A stretch of DNA of 64,000 bases, taken from assembly GCF_006494655.1 (NCBI RefSeq), contig NZ_VHIM01000006.1, forward strand, positions 1 through 64,000, written 5' to 3'. The notes under the pieces are model-generated. The model searched no databases. It was not told the origin of the DNA and was given only the letters and a program-made list of their open reading frames with translations. Of the stretch, positions 25,911 through 29,456 are shown one piece after another; position 1 is the first letter of the stretch; every line of letters begins with the position of its first letter. Both the position numbers and the translations under genes were made by a program. Source of the DNA: Arthrobacter agilis (lineage in GTDB: Bacteria > Actinomycetota > Actinomycetes > Actinomycetales > Micrococcaceae).

Positions 25911-25955
25911 ATACCGCGGGCACTCCCTCCCCAGCGAAGAGGGTGCCCGCGGTAT
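25911..25955 (-). terminator. Terminator of the secreted-peptide gene
   Basis: A 12-bp stem ATACCGCGGGCA/TGCCCGCGGTAT (25911-25922 with 25944-25955) with a partly paired C/G-rich loop. On the minus strand it is followed by CTCCTTTTAAT. It lies 65 nt after the peptide stop. Confidence 0.75.
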
Positions 25956-26019
25956 AGGTACTCCGGTGGATCAGCAGGGCGCCCAGCTTACGCAAGAGCG
26001 CTGCATGCCGATGGTGGAG

Positions 26020-26160
26020 TTAGAAAGGCCAGTTGCCCACGCGGTCCAGCGACGATACGGGAGCAACTACACCGCTCTTGGCCGGAGCGGCATTCGCGGT
26101 GGCCGCGCCGGTGGTGACGAGGAGTGCGGCGAGCAGCAGTGCGGAGGTGATGCGCTTCAT
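26020..26160 (-). CDS. Small secreted pro-peptide (candidate signalling peptide)
   Basis: A 46-codon gene. Residues 1-24 are a textbook Sec signal: Lys-Arg, a Leu/Ala core (SALLLAALLVTTGAA) and an A-N-A cleavage site. The remaining 22 residues form a small peptide ending DRVGNWPF with no cysteine. AAAGGA precedes the ATG, and TTACTA-17 nt-TACGAT (26253-26258 and 26230-26235) is a possible promoter. A strong terminator follows. It is divergent from a TPR protein without a DNA-binding domain. In Firmicutes, Rap-type TPR proteins are paired with secreted Phr pro-peptides of just this size. That analogy suggests a peptide signal, but no homologue is recognised. Alternatives are a small secreted antimicrobial or an unrelated short secreted protein. 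Confidence 0.65.
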   Translation of the reverse strand: MKRITSALLLAALLVTTGAATANAAPAKSGVVAPVSSLDRVGNWPF

Positions 26161-26229
26161 GGAGTGTCCTTTGACGGTGATCGACAGTGGTTGTGGAGTT
26201 CCGCCCGTACCACGAGCGCCTCTGAAAAC

Positions 26230-26290
26230 ATCGTAAGCCACACCAGCCACTTTAGTAACATTTTTCACTTACTTTTTTTAGAATCTTTTC
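26230..26290. promoter_or_regulatory. AT-rich divergent promoter region (peptide / TPR genes)
   Basis: This stretch is far more AT-rich than its surroundings. For the minus-strand peptide gene, TTACTA (26258-26253) and TACGAT (26235-26230) are 17 nt apart. For the plus-strand TPR gene, TAGAAT (26279-26284) is a good -10 with no clear -35. An AGTAA-N10-TTACT repeat lies between them. CCACTTTA (26247-26254) is repeated inverted as TAAAGTGG (26322-26329), a possible shared operator. Confidence 0.45.
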
Positions 26291-26367
26291 GTCCAGTGGA
26301 TCCATGACACCCGGCCGCCCATAAAGTGGTGAGCACGGTCAACAGAGGCGGAAGGCCGATAAGACGA

Positions 26368-27408
26368 ATGGCAGACAGAGAAGCCCCAGGTGAGCGACTG
26401 ATCCTCGAATTCCGGGCACGCGATGCGTGGAACCAGAGGGACTATTCCGGTGCGCAGCGGCTTGCCGACGCGTGGGCGGACCTCTGCAGGGCGAACGACG
26501 ATGAAGAGGGCTTGTGGAATGCCTCCTTCCTCGCTGGGGAGTGTCTTCGAAAACAAGGCTTGATGGACGAGTCCCGACTTGTGGCAGAGCGTCTCGAGCT
26601 TTCACCGGTGACCCAGAGGTCGCCGGCCCTCAAGGCCCGGGTCTCGACTCTGAGGGCATTTGCGCTGCAGGGAAGCGGGGACCTGCCTTCAGCAGTGGAA
26701 GCTGCACGCGCCGCAGTCAAGGAGGCGATGACAGGCCCTGACCACACCGAAGTCGCTGTCGAAGCCATGAATGCTCTCATCGCGGCCCTGGCGGAGAGCG
26801 GGCTGCTTCCCGAGGCATGGAAGGAGTCCCTCCTCCTCGACGACCTCCTGAAGCAGGATCGGGACAACAAGTATGCGGGACAGTCCTACTGGGCCATCGG
26901 AAATGTAGCCTTTCTCCTGGACAGGATCTCCGACGGGGTGGCGTATCACCAGCTAGCAGCCAAGAATCTCTCGCCCACCAATGATTTGGACCTCTGGGCT
27001 CACTTCAACCGGGCTTCCGCGTCGCTCAGGCTGACCGCCGGAGTTACTGGACCAGAGACGCTCGAATGTATCGAACGCGCGGAGCTCGCGGCATCGATCG
27101 TCGGCGGCACCGAGCGTGATCGTCTCGAATTGAAACTGACACGGGCGCAGTGGCTCGTTCTCACCGAGCAGTTCGAGATGGCTGTCAGCCACCTGAATGC
27201 GATCATCGAACGCGAGGAGTTGCTCGCTTCCCACGTTGCGGCCCAGGCTCACTTCCTCCTGGGTCAGGCTCTCTCGGCCTGCGGACACGAGACCGACGCC
27301 GTCCGGCACCTGACGATCGGAGAGGAACTCTTCCTCGCGTCCGGAGCCGAGGACCGCGCCTCCATGGCCCGCGGGCTGATCCGCAGCATCGAGCACCCGA
27401 GCGCCTGA
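26368..27408 (+). CDS. TPR-repeat protein, candidate peptide receptor
   Basis: A 346-residue all-helical protein built of tetratricopeptide-like repeats, e.g. RDYSGAQRLADAWADLCRA, then [17 protein letters not shown], then QFEMAVSHLNAIIE and ETDAVRHLTIGEELFLASG. It has no helix-turn-helix, enzyme domain, signal peptide or membrane segment, so it should act in the cytoplasm through protein or peptide binding, as Rap proteins do. The ATG at 26368 has GGAAGG upstream; an in-frame GTG at 26326 has no Shine-Dalgarno but would also be downstream of the candidate -10. GC content and codon use look lower than in its neighbours, hinting at different ancestry. Divergent from the secreted-peptide gene. 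Confidence 0.7.
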   Translation: MADREAPGERLILEFRARDAWNQRDYSGAQRLADAWADLCRANDDEEGLWNASFLAGECLRKQGLMDESRLVAERLELSPVTQRSPALKARVSTLRAFALQGSGDLPSAVEAARAAVKEAMTGPDHTEVAVEAMNALIAALAESGLLPEAWKESLLLDDLLKQDRDNKYAGQSYWAIGNVAFLLDRISDGVAYHQLAAKNLSPTNDLDLWAHFNRASASLRLTAGVTGPETLECIERAELAASIVGGTERDRLELKLTRAQWLVLTEQFEMAVSHLNAIIEREELLASHVAAQAHFLLGQALSACGHETDAVRHLTIGEELFLASGAEDRASMARGLIRSIEHPSA

Positions 27409-27881: not shown

Positions 27882-29456
27882 ATGAGCGCTGACCACAAGG
27901 ATCCCCGGCTCGCCATGCTGGTCGAGAGCATCGTGCGCCTGTCGCGGGGAGAGCTCAGCAGCCGCATCGAGCCGTCCAGTGCCCGGGACGACGTCGACGC
28001 CGTGATCACGGGTGTCAACCTGCTCGCCGAGGAACTCGAGCAGGTCTACGAGCAGTTCGAGAAGCGTGTGGAGAGCCGGACGGCCATGCTGCGGCAGGCG
28101 CACCTGGACATGATGAAGATGGCGATGTCCGATGCCCTCACCGGACTCGCCAACCGCGTGGCACTCATGGACGCCATCGAGGAAGCCCTCGGCCAGGCCG
28201 CGGACGGCGCGGCCCCGCCTGCGCTGCTGCTCCTCGATCTCGACAGCTTCAAGAACGTCAACGACCGGTTCGGCCACGACGCCGGCGACCGCGTACTCCA
28301 GGAGGTGGCCTCCCGCCTCAACGGGGTGGTCAGGGAGAGCGACCTCGTGGCGCGGCTGGGCGGCGACGAGTTCGCGATCCTGCTGCCGGCCGCGACCATG
28401 GACATCGCCATGCAGGTGGCCCGCCGGGCGCTGGAGGTGCTGGGTGAGCAGATCCGGCTCGACTCGCTCTACATCCACTCCCGGGCGAGCATCGGGGTCC
28501 GCCTCGGAACGGCCGACCAGAGCGCCGAGGAACTGCTCCTGGACGCGGACACCGCCATGTACGCGGCGAAGCGGGAAGGCCGCAGCATCATCAAGGTGTT
28601 CGAGCCGGTCATGCTCTACTCGCGGCAGCTACGCAGTCAGATGGCCACCGAACTGCGCGGTGCCATCAGTGCCGACGAACTCGTGCTGCACTACCAGCCC
28701 GTCGTGGAACTCGCGACGAACCGCATTCTCGGGGTCGAGGTCCTCGTGCGGTGGCAGCATCCGCTCCGAGGGCTCATCCCGCCGGACACCTTCATTCCGC
28801 TGGCGGAGGAGATCGGTGTCATCCACGACCTCGACCGCTGGGTGATGGCCGCATCGCTGCGGCAACTGGCCCGATGGCGCTCCGAGCTCGACCTCGACGA
28901 CGACTTCCAGCTGAGGGTCAATCTCTCGGCGATGGAACTCAAGCAACTCAATCTCGTGGACCACATCCGATCACTGCTTCGCGAGCTGGAGTTGCCGGCC
29001 GGCAACCTGGTGGTGGAGATCACCGAGACGGCGATCGTGACGCGGGGCGAGGTCGAGATGTACTCCCTGCTGAGCCTGCAGCAGCTGGGCGTGGGCATCG
29101 AGATCGACGACTTCGGGACGGGCTACTCGTCCATCAGCTACCTGCGGGAGCTTCCCGTCAGCATGGTGAAGGTGGACCGCTCGCTGCTCGTGGAGCTCAA
29201 CACCAGGGCGGGTCAGCTCGATTTCGTCGCGGCGATCCTGCAGCTCATCCGTGCAGCCGGCCTCGAGGCGGTCTTCGAGGGCATCGAGACCCGTGAACAG
29301 GCGGAACAGCTGCGCGCGCTGGGCTGCGCCAGCGGGCAGGGGTACTACTTCAGCCGCCCGTTGCCGGCGGATGAGGCAGGCGCGCTGCTCGCCACGACCC
29401 ATCACCTGCAGCTGGGCGACGGCGTGAAAAGCGCGGAAGTGACGACGTCGTCCTGA
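27882..29456 (+). CDS. Cytoplasmic GGDEF-EAL protein (cyclic-di-GMP turnover)
   Basis: A 524-residue protein. Residues 1-85 form a HAMP-like/coiled-coil segment (LVESIVRLSRGELSSRIEPS, then NLLAEELEQVYEQFEKRVE) without a membrane anchor. A GGDEF domain (about 90-250) has an intact GGDEF in RLGGDEFAIL. The EAL domain (about 265-505) has EVLVRW in place of EALVRW, keeping the metal-binding Glu, and DDFGTGYSS and EGIET. Both activities are possible. TACGCT ends seven bases before the ATG at 27882, supporting that start and a leaderless mRNA. This is the second c-di-GMP protein within 11 kb. Confidence 0.9.
   Translation: MSADHKDPRLAMLVESIVRLSRGELSSRIEPSSARDDVDAVITGVNLLAEELEQVYEQFEKRVESRTAMLRQAHLDMMKMAMSDALTGLANRVALMDAIEEALGQAADGAAPPALLLLDLDSFKNVNDRFGHDAGDRVLQEVASRLNGVVRESDLVARLGGDEFAILLPAATMDIAMQVARRALEVLGEQIRLDSLYIHSRASIGVRLGTADQSAEELLLDADTAMYAAKREGRSIIKVFEPVMLYSRQLRSQMATELRGAISADELVLHYQPVVELATNRILGVEVLVRWQHPLRGLIPPDTFIPLAEEIGVIHDLDRWVMAASLRQLARWRSELDLDDDFQLRVNLSAMELKQLNLVDHIRSLLRELELPAGNLVVEITETAIVTRGEVEMYSLLSLQQLGVGIEIDDFGTGYSSISYLRELPVSMVKVDRSLLVELNTRAGQLDFVAAILQLIRAAGLEAVFEGIETREQAEQLRALGCASGQGYYFSRPLPADEAGALLATTHHLQLGDGVKSAEVTTSS

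Follow-up and report, generated by a model that had tools for sequence, protein, structure and literature searches.

A Trp-Pro propeptide divergent from a TPR protein in Arthrobacter agilis: a probable peptide pheromone and its receptor

Does a 46-codon gene standing back to back with a tetratricopeptide repeat (TPR) gene in Arthrobacter agilis encode a signal for its neighbour? The pair lies in the first 64,000 nucleotides of contig NZ_VHIM01000006.1 (hereafter the window, meaning that whole stretch), where an initial annotation proposed a signalling module with the logic of the Rap-Phr systems of Firmicutes. Our results indicate that peptide and TPR protein are almost certainly cognate ligand and receptor, judging from their sequences, and that they probably constitute a peptide pheromone and a cytoplasmic receptor resembling the RRNPP systems (Rap/PlcR/AimR type), as an actinobacterial family of their own.

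The propeptide gene was found as annotated on the minus strand (26020-26160), encoding MKRITSALLLAALLVTTGAATANA followed by APAKSGVVAPVSSLDRVGNWPF, 46 residues and a stop codon. Residues 1-24 (26089-26160, minus strand) form a predicted Sec signal peptide with a probable signal peptidase I cleavage between ANA and AP, a site judged by eye that leaves a mature part of 22 residues. Its C-terminal DRVGNWPF (26023-26046, minus strand) is the putative signal core, on the strength of its conservation and its repetition in relatives. The divergent partner is a TPR-only gene of 346 codons on the plus strand, from the ATG at 26368 to 27408, likewise as annotated. A lipoprotein reading of the window peptide was rejected because it has no Cys; its LPAM_1 match in Pfam (E 0.03) is below the cut-off.

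Pairing, core conservation and co-variation

We gathered 170 distinct receptor genes from Micrococcaceae, leaving out the weaker matches of the family search, and counted propeptides at the 163 with at least 650 nt upstream. The filter was mechanical: a short open reading frame (ORF) on the divergent strand with a basic start, a hydrophobic stretch and a Trp-Pro (WP) past residue 18. Such an ORF is present at 156 of the 163 genes, compared to 2 of 159 control gene starts in the same loci (not mutually independent), none of which (0/159) has repeated WP; these controls rule out a chance micro-ORF. The regular company of a micro-ORF beside TPR homologues, on which the initial annotation had staked its proposal beforehand, is thus borne out. 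That the two genes are neighbours by chance or phylogenetic inertia, with no functional link, has a negligible probability: they are inherited together within the genus, but the controls, the selection on the repeats, the co-variation described below and the recurrence in other families contradict it.

Of 295 family genomes sampled, 144 contain a receptor homologue. Among the best 80 of 318 matches, receptor-bearing species are A. agilis, A. ruber, A. echini, A. bussei, A. globiformis, A. koreensis and A. rhombi, as well as Paenarthrobacter aurescens, nicotinovorans and nitroguajacolicus; for P. aurescens TC1 the predicted core is IGWWPN. A separate search for the peptide places it beside the TPR gene in every same-genus genome sampled (22 of 22). 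Fourteen genomes and two further loci have two peptide-bearing pairs, each with two different cores. Tandem arrays of two pairs with differing cores (e.g., IDDWPH and IGNWPD) were seen at L062, L063, L065, L163 and L167 (L numbers are our locus handles) and look as if duplicated and then diverged. At L141 a stop interrupts the receptor frame and the short propeptide has one core and no clear signal, possibly a decaying pair. A record labelled Vibrio cholerae strain 35D (WNZI01000017.1, L145) holds an Arthrobacter-type locus, with gltX, FAH, BCAT, leuB and GGDEF-EAL genes 89-94% identical to those of the window and a HAD gene at 69%, and is a mislabelled or contaminated assembly.

Across the family, 351 cores follow as a rule the pattern (V/I)G(N/W/D)WP(D/N/H/F/Y), in which WP is universal by construction, being the search criterion, and Gly occupies peptide position -2 in 324. 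Of the 156 propeptides, 59 carry one WP and 97 carry two to eight, such as VGDWPH eight times (L072), AIGNWPDPM five times (L096), VGNWPDPM four times (L126) and FVGNWPDAVAP five times (L128); part of the window's genus also carries core repeats in place of the single core. Comparison of copies of the six-residue core within those 97 genes (375 pairs) shows 649 synonymous differences and 18 non-synonymous ones, a ratio of non-synonymous to synonymous polymorphism (pN/pS) of 0.007 in which neither the pairs nor the related genomes are independent. In the window's genus, 14 of 16 peptides could be aligned at 46 residues, two of other length being set aside; D39, R40, V41, W44 and P45 are invariant in all 14 and positions 42, 43 and 46 vary, while in the signal region A19, A20, A22, A24, A25 and P26 are invariant. 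Both samples therefore agree with the expected conservation of the peptide C-terminus. Single-copy genus peptides have a pN/pS of 0.33 overall and 0.31 in the core and, because positions 42, 43 and 46 vary, we take this as selection on the protein and not as a specially constrained core.

A strong link between the partners is co-variation between peptide position -3 and receptor residue 66 (window numbering; Met, 26563-26565, plus strand). Among 156 pairs, Ile at -3 occurs with I/L/V at 77 tips and with M at 1, and Val with M/W/F/Y/H at 62; the 16 tips carrying neither residue at -3 were left out. Because a mutual-information scan was judged too open to shared ancestry, a branch test was run on a FastTree tree built without the tested columns. 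Ile/Val switches (17) and small/bulky switches (19) coincide on 15 branches, where 1.74 are expected by branch length and 0 of 5000 permutations reach that number, with the reservation that the small/bulky grouping of residue 66 was chosen after the table was seen. A grouping-free scan of exact residues over variable, mostly ungapped columns, by a score of our own, ranks residue 66 first, 61 second and 101 third. With 15 of 17 switches on the same branches, a direct contact between peptide -3 and residue 66 is likely; moreover, direct packing would pair a bulky receptor residue with the smaller peptide residue and vice versa, as is seen. For peptide -1, shared branches number 7 with residue 220 (2.1 expected, 3/2000 permutations), 8 with residue 219 (4.1 expected, 42/2000) and 3 with residue 216 (1.1 expected, 150/2000). 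The leading columns, 220 and 219, sit in helix 207-223 (26986-27036, plus strand) together with W210, F213, N214 and R221, which are invariant in our alignments A1 and A3, and a contact of peptide -1 with residues 219/220 is suggested more weakly.

These features could also describe a secreted antimicrobial, or a product akin to ribosomally synthesised and post-translationally modified peptides (RiPPs), with the TPR protein as its immunity factor or dedicated regulator, since toxin-immunity pairs co-vary too. Multi-core precursors are known among RiPPs, and some Streptomyces loci adjoin biosynthetic genes. We regard this as very improbable: no modification enzyme was seen at the part of the Micrococcaceae loci whose neighbours were inspected, the receptor looks cytoplasmic, HTH forms of the receptor (below) have an inverted repeat at the peptide promoter, and the core is a short, nearly invariant scaffold.

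For a pheromone and receptor, we propose the following route. The propeptide would be exported by Sec, as its signal suggests; signal peptidase and a further protease would release a C-terminal peptide of about six to eight residues, (DR)VGNWPF; an oligopeptide permease would bring it back in; and it would dock in the TPR groove of a presumably cytoplasmic receptor, with -3 at residue 66 and -1 at 219/220, and change the receptor's action. Signalling would then depend on export, import and cell density. Five SBP_bac_5 proteins in the window's own genome show oligopeptide-import capacity only. The TPR protein might instead bind the unexported propeptide inside the cell, as a sensor of secretion status or synthesis or as a chaperone, with no signal between cells; co-variation needs contact only, not import, and the motif occurs in signal-less short frames of some Streptomyces relatives. 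This is unlikely in our view, as the Sec-like signal demanded by the filter is there at 156 of 163 genes and the spacer-separated repeats look made for cutting into many copies, and an extracellular signal is the quite probable reading over an internal cue.

Receptor classes, the operator of HTH forms and the window locus

AlphaFold2 predicts the window receptor as an all-helical solenoid (pLDDT 93.7, predicted TM-score 0.86) with helices from residue 6 to 342; its TPR_16 match in Pfam (E 1.7e-6, 28.8 bits) lies under the cut-off of 32.7. Residues invariant in 36 aligned proteins (A1) include, besides the four in helix 207-223, W50, W151, W175, H194 and W262. Many homologues carry an N-terminal extension of ~74 residues of the XRE type, and Pfam finds helix-turn-helix (HTH) domains HTH_31/HTH_3 in all five long forms scanned and in 16 A1 members; in the AlphaFold2 model of an HTH form the HTH part is poor (pLDDT about 35-50) and the TPR part good. 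The 170 receptor genes divide into 69 HTH (~40%) and 101 TPR-only forms, and the difference maps to one change on the tree of 156 pairs. A protein of Arthrobacter sp. Hiyo8 is one example of an HTH form. At 14 chosen same-group loci, the receptor has a median identity of 61% to the window protein, and the GGDEF-EAL, FAH, gltX and BCAT neighbours 90-93%.

The HTH forms very likely control the propeptide promoter through a TTGACA-N28-TGTCA operator. Among 65 intergenic regions of the HTH class that have a peptide, 60 contain this inverted repeat, at a spacing of 27 or 28 nt (exactly 28 in 58), compared to 0 of 91 TPR-only regions and 0.05 from shuffles. One arm serves as the -35 element of the propeptide promoter, with TACAAT (49) or TTTACT (13) after it; no -10 was visible next to the other arm. 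We searched 43 chosen genomes, 40 with an HTH form and three of the window's genus, for the exact 12-base pattern TTGACA-N28-TGTCAA, which is found in 39 (once in 34, twice in five, where the second site is dissimilar) and is missing from one HTH-form genome (G037) and the three genomes of the window's genus; a reversed control over the 43 also gave zero. A wider regulon was considered and set aside: in each of the 39 genomes one site lies upstream of the receptor, so that no further operator target emerged.

In the window, the AT-rich divergent intergenic region (26161-26367) is of the TPR-only type and lacks this repeat. The annotated ribosome site of the propeptide gene is present as AAAGGA (26167-26172, minus strand), 6 nt ahead of the ATG, and the lower GC content of the gene pair holds as well (0.596-0.612 across 26000-27000 vs. 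0.65-0.70 around it). The promoter candidate for the propeptide gene was not recovered: a promoter scan gave a single match (0.2 expected), at 26255-26284 on the plus strand, which points to the TPR gene. Of the claimed terminator, a terminator-like hairpin 3' of the propeptide gene stands (25911-25955, minus strand; -35.3 kcal/mol, z -5.3), followed by CUCCUUUU, while a simple terminator scan reported no terminator for this gene, that hairpin included.

The window's own genome also encodes an orphan HTH-TPR relative (G000:C11:459179-460357; L240, L339). The lone WP frame within 2.5 kb of it, an Arg/Ser-rich, signal-less frame of 213 residues, was rejected as its peptide and judged a chance occurrence. 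By eye, the orphan has Leu at the residue-66 position and for that reason may prefer an Ile-type peptide from elsewhere, as a possible eavesdropper.

A GGDEF-EAL neighbour as candidate output

The nearest downstream gene on the plus strand, as the initial annotation stated, encodes a GGDEF-EAL protein (27882-29456) with a HAMP-like N-terminus, which we propose as the output of the TPR receptor. Downstream of the receptor, such a gene stands at 72 of the 100 TPR-only loci that extend far enough to tell and at 0 of 69 HTH loci, and at L124 it lies on the opposite side of the pair. The linkage spans the A. agilis group to A. koreensis, A. globiformis and Paenarthrobacter, and persists where the other flanks (gltX, FAH, BCAT, leuB) do not; it is a conserved linkage and not many independent events. 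Judged by where the alignment begins, the gap to the receptor gene is 15 nt in 18 of the 72 loci; in the window it measures 473 nt. In all 48 proteins of at least 450 residues the GGDEF, RxxD and EAL positions, which we take to be the catalytic ones, are identical. No membrane segment is seen in the N-terminus, where HAMP matches below threshold, and Pfam finds no other sensor domain.

In the TPR-only branch the likely partner of the receptor would be this enzyme, through which the peptide would set local cyclic di-GMP (c-di-GMP), and we lean slightly towards such an output in the window's branch. Possible, and to be taken seriously, is that the GGDEF-EAL protein is a bystander and that the TPR-only protein acts on another partner, such as an orphan HTH-TPR paralogue or a response regulator: 28 of the 100 TPR-only genes lack the neighbour, the gap in the window is wide, and an orphan HTH-TPR gene exists in its genome. 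Retention of the gene from the A. agilis group to Paenarthrobacter while other flanks change, the short gap estimated at 18 loci and the absence by Pfam of a sensor domain beyond the sub-threshold HAMP speak for the c-di-GMP output instead.

Where the GGDEF-EAL gene is missing, a secreted protein was seen beside the TPR gene (L156, L158, L161, L163, L167, L182 and L065, among them several loci of the window's genus), mostly followed by a processive GT2 glycosyltransferase. Pfam was run on two of these proteins and finds CBM5_12 in both (L156, L167) and GH18 below the cut-off in L167. The window's genome keeps an 82% GT2 orthologue elsewhere (C44).

Relatives outside the genus and comparison with known systems

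Another genus of the family has VTPAVGNWPDR five times (L331), and at class level matches were found in 13 of 394 genomes. Outside the family, 5 of 10 fetched loci have a divergent signal-bearing WP ORF, with cores such as TVGGSWPT three times (L242) and DIGWP or DIEWP twice (L245, L249). Streptomycetaceae hold HTH-TPR relatives in 37 plasmid records. Of 18 plasmid loci fetched, eight carry, no more than about 2.5 kb away, an ORF with a signal and two to six (I/V)(G/E/D)WP motifs; at six the motif lies upstream in a frame lacking an evident signal, and at four neither is seen. A count over 38 Streptomycetaceae loci gives 44 motifs, spread over 20 of them, vs. 2 in reversed sequence. Neighbouring genes in Streptomyces include non-ribosomal peptide synthetase (NRPS), condensation-domain, acyl carrier, P450 and SARP genes. 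On Streptomyces plasmids L273, L277, L278, L281, L285 and L287, signal-less DIGWP/DIDWP frames lie upstream of HTH-TPR genes, and several end right after the motif, possibly as leaderless signals.

Several observations weigh against reading these pairs as pheromones and receptors. Among the 163 receptors, seven have no detected peptide (L074, L117, L125, L136, L138, L141, L165), 151 of the 295 family genomes have no receptor match at all, and 28 TPR-only genes stand without the GGDEF-EAL neighbour. The tree separates HTH from TPR-only forms by one split, so that their associations with the inverted repeat and with GGDEF-EAL do not amount to many independent events. At peptide -1 the branch test is weaker than at -3, and peptide +2 gives a match in the exact-residue mutual-information scan only. 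Several Streptomyces relatives apparently lack a signal peptide, which weakens a universal export-import model. Finally, the best Foldseek matches of the window protein are generic peptide-binding TPRs (LGN, consensus TPR) and its top 50 contain no RRNPP protein, with Rap (4gyo) at rank 49 for the HTH form.

With these points in the balance, we find it somewhat probable that Actinomycetota possess a phylum-scale Trp-Pro pheromone system in which propeptides, often multi-copy, leave by Sec and are sensed by HTH-TPR or TPR-only receptors; within it, the Micrococcaceae TPR-only branch would act on c-di-GMP, and the Streptomyces pairs, of which some lie on linear plasmids and beside NRPS, polyketide synthase or SARP genes, would time specialised metabolism. 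If so, Arthrobacter and Streptomyces would share an encoded, swappable peptide language, and community behaviour, biofilm control and silent biosynthetic clusters could be tested simply with hexapeptides. Part of the specificity code, peptide -3 vs. receptor residue 66, can already be read. A cytoplasmic peptide receptor driving a GGDEF-EAL enzyme would, in addition, be a new wiring of cell-cell signals to c-di-GMP.

The relevant passages of PMC10075063 name small molecules made by enzymes as the typical quorum-sensing signals of actinobacteria and assign oligopeptides to Bacillota. Among the open-access literature matches listed, we found no relevant paper on the core strings, no RRNPP or peptide signalling of this kind in actinobacteria and, in line with the initial annotation, no Rap-Phr equivalent in Micrococcaceae. 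The XRE-DUF397 (WhiJ/BldB-type) pairs of Streptomyces also place an XRE regulator beside a very small gene, the product of which is a cytoplasmic DUF397 protein; the window peptide, in contrast, has no DUF397 match (LPAM_1 was its only one in Pfam) and the receptors here have TPRs. The composite c-di-GMP enzyme with conserved catalytic positions is shared with GGDEF-EAL proteins that have sensory partners, but here the input would come from a separate TPR peptide receptor. We know of no described GGDEF-EAL enzyme fed in this way, and the best 12 of 755 open-access matches contained none.

The RRNPPA systems (PlcR, NprR, Rgg, PrgX, ComR, AimR), described for Bacillota/Firmicutes in the parts of PMC10075063 and PMC9765709 concerned with them, combine an HTH and TPR receptor with an adjacent small secreted propeptide and a usually C-terminal pheromone. 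The same traits recur here: the predicted all-helical TPR solenoid of the window protein, HTH_31/HTH_3 with TPRs in the long forms, and an adjacent propeptide gene at 156 of 163 receptors with secretion predicted from its signal. The phylum, the Trp-Pro core and the up to eight copies set the present systems apart. Among 60 of 190 matches, an HTH-TPR profile (A2) aligns with PlcR (2qfc_A) in one stretch, residues 5-173 to chain 4-173 (E 4.3e-10), covering the HTH and first repeats, and also with the HTH of ComR; because designed TPR and XRE proteins score equally or better, a distant relationship to RRNPP is possible but falls short of proof. No RRNPP match, Rap included, was among the 25 from the A1 profile, and no RRNPP-specific Pfam model appeared among 25 of 59 families. 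The best 50 of 378 matches in a viral fold library contain no entry named as an RRNPP protein and one 'Response regulator protein' (E 9.7e-4).

In Rap-Phr of Bacillus, an HTH-less TPR receptor also stands beside an exported propeptide and, as the pertinent section of PMC11343458 describes, some Phr carry tandem pheromone copies. Rap proteins have an N-terminal three-helix bundle that acts on a response regulator; in the model of the window protein, helices extend from residue 6 to 342. The Rap-Phr-like logic of the initial annotation thus survives in the pairing of a TPR receptor with a signal-bearing propeptide; this is not plain Rap-Phr, as the gene order is divergent, the core is Trp-Pro, GGDEF-EAL is the common neighbour, and neither sequence match nor kinship to Rap was found. 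The HTH branch recalls AimR-AimP arbitrium, with its HTH-TPR receptor and two inverted 6-bp boxes across a long spacer, here mostly N28. In the AimR operator the 6-bp boxes are 25 bp apart, and spacers of 23-28 bp are bound with similar affinity, as given in the portion of PMC6458997 on this operator. A phage origin as in arbitrium was rejected, since the HTH-TPR protein L083 had no match in 50,697 phage records at E 1e-5. The apparent likeness of the operator to that of AimR is one of layout, restricted to the HTH branch, the window's branch being without the repeat; the pairs described here are chromosomal, or plasmid-borne in Streptomyces, their boxes are different, and one box overlaps the -35 element of the propeptide promoter.

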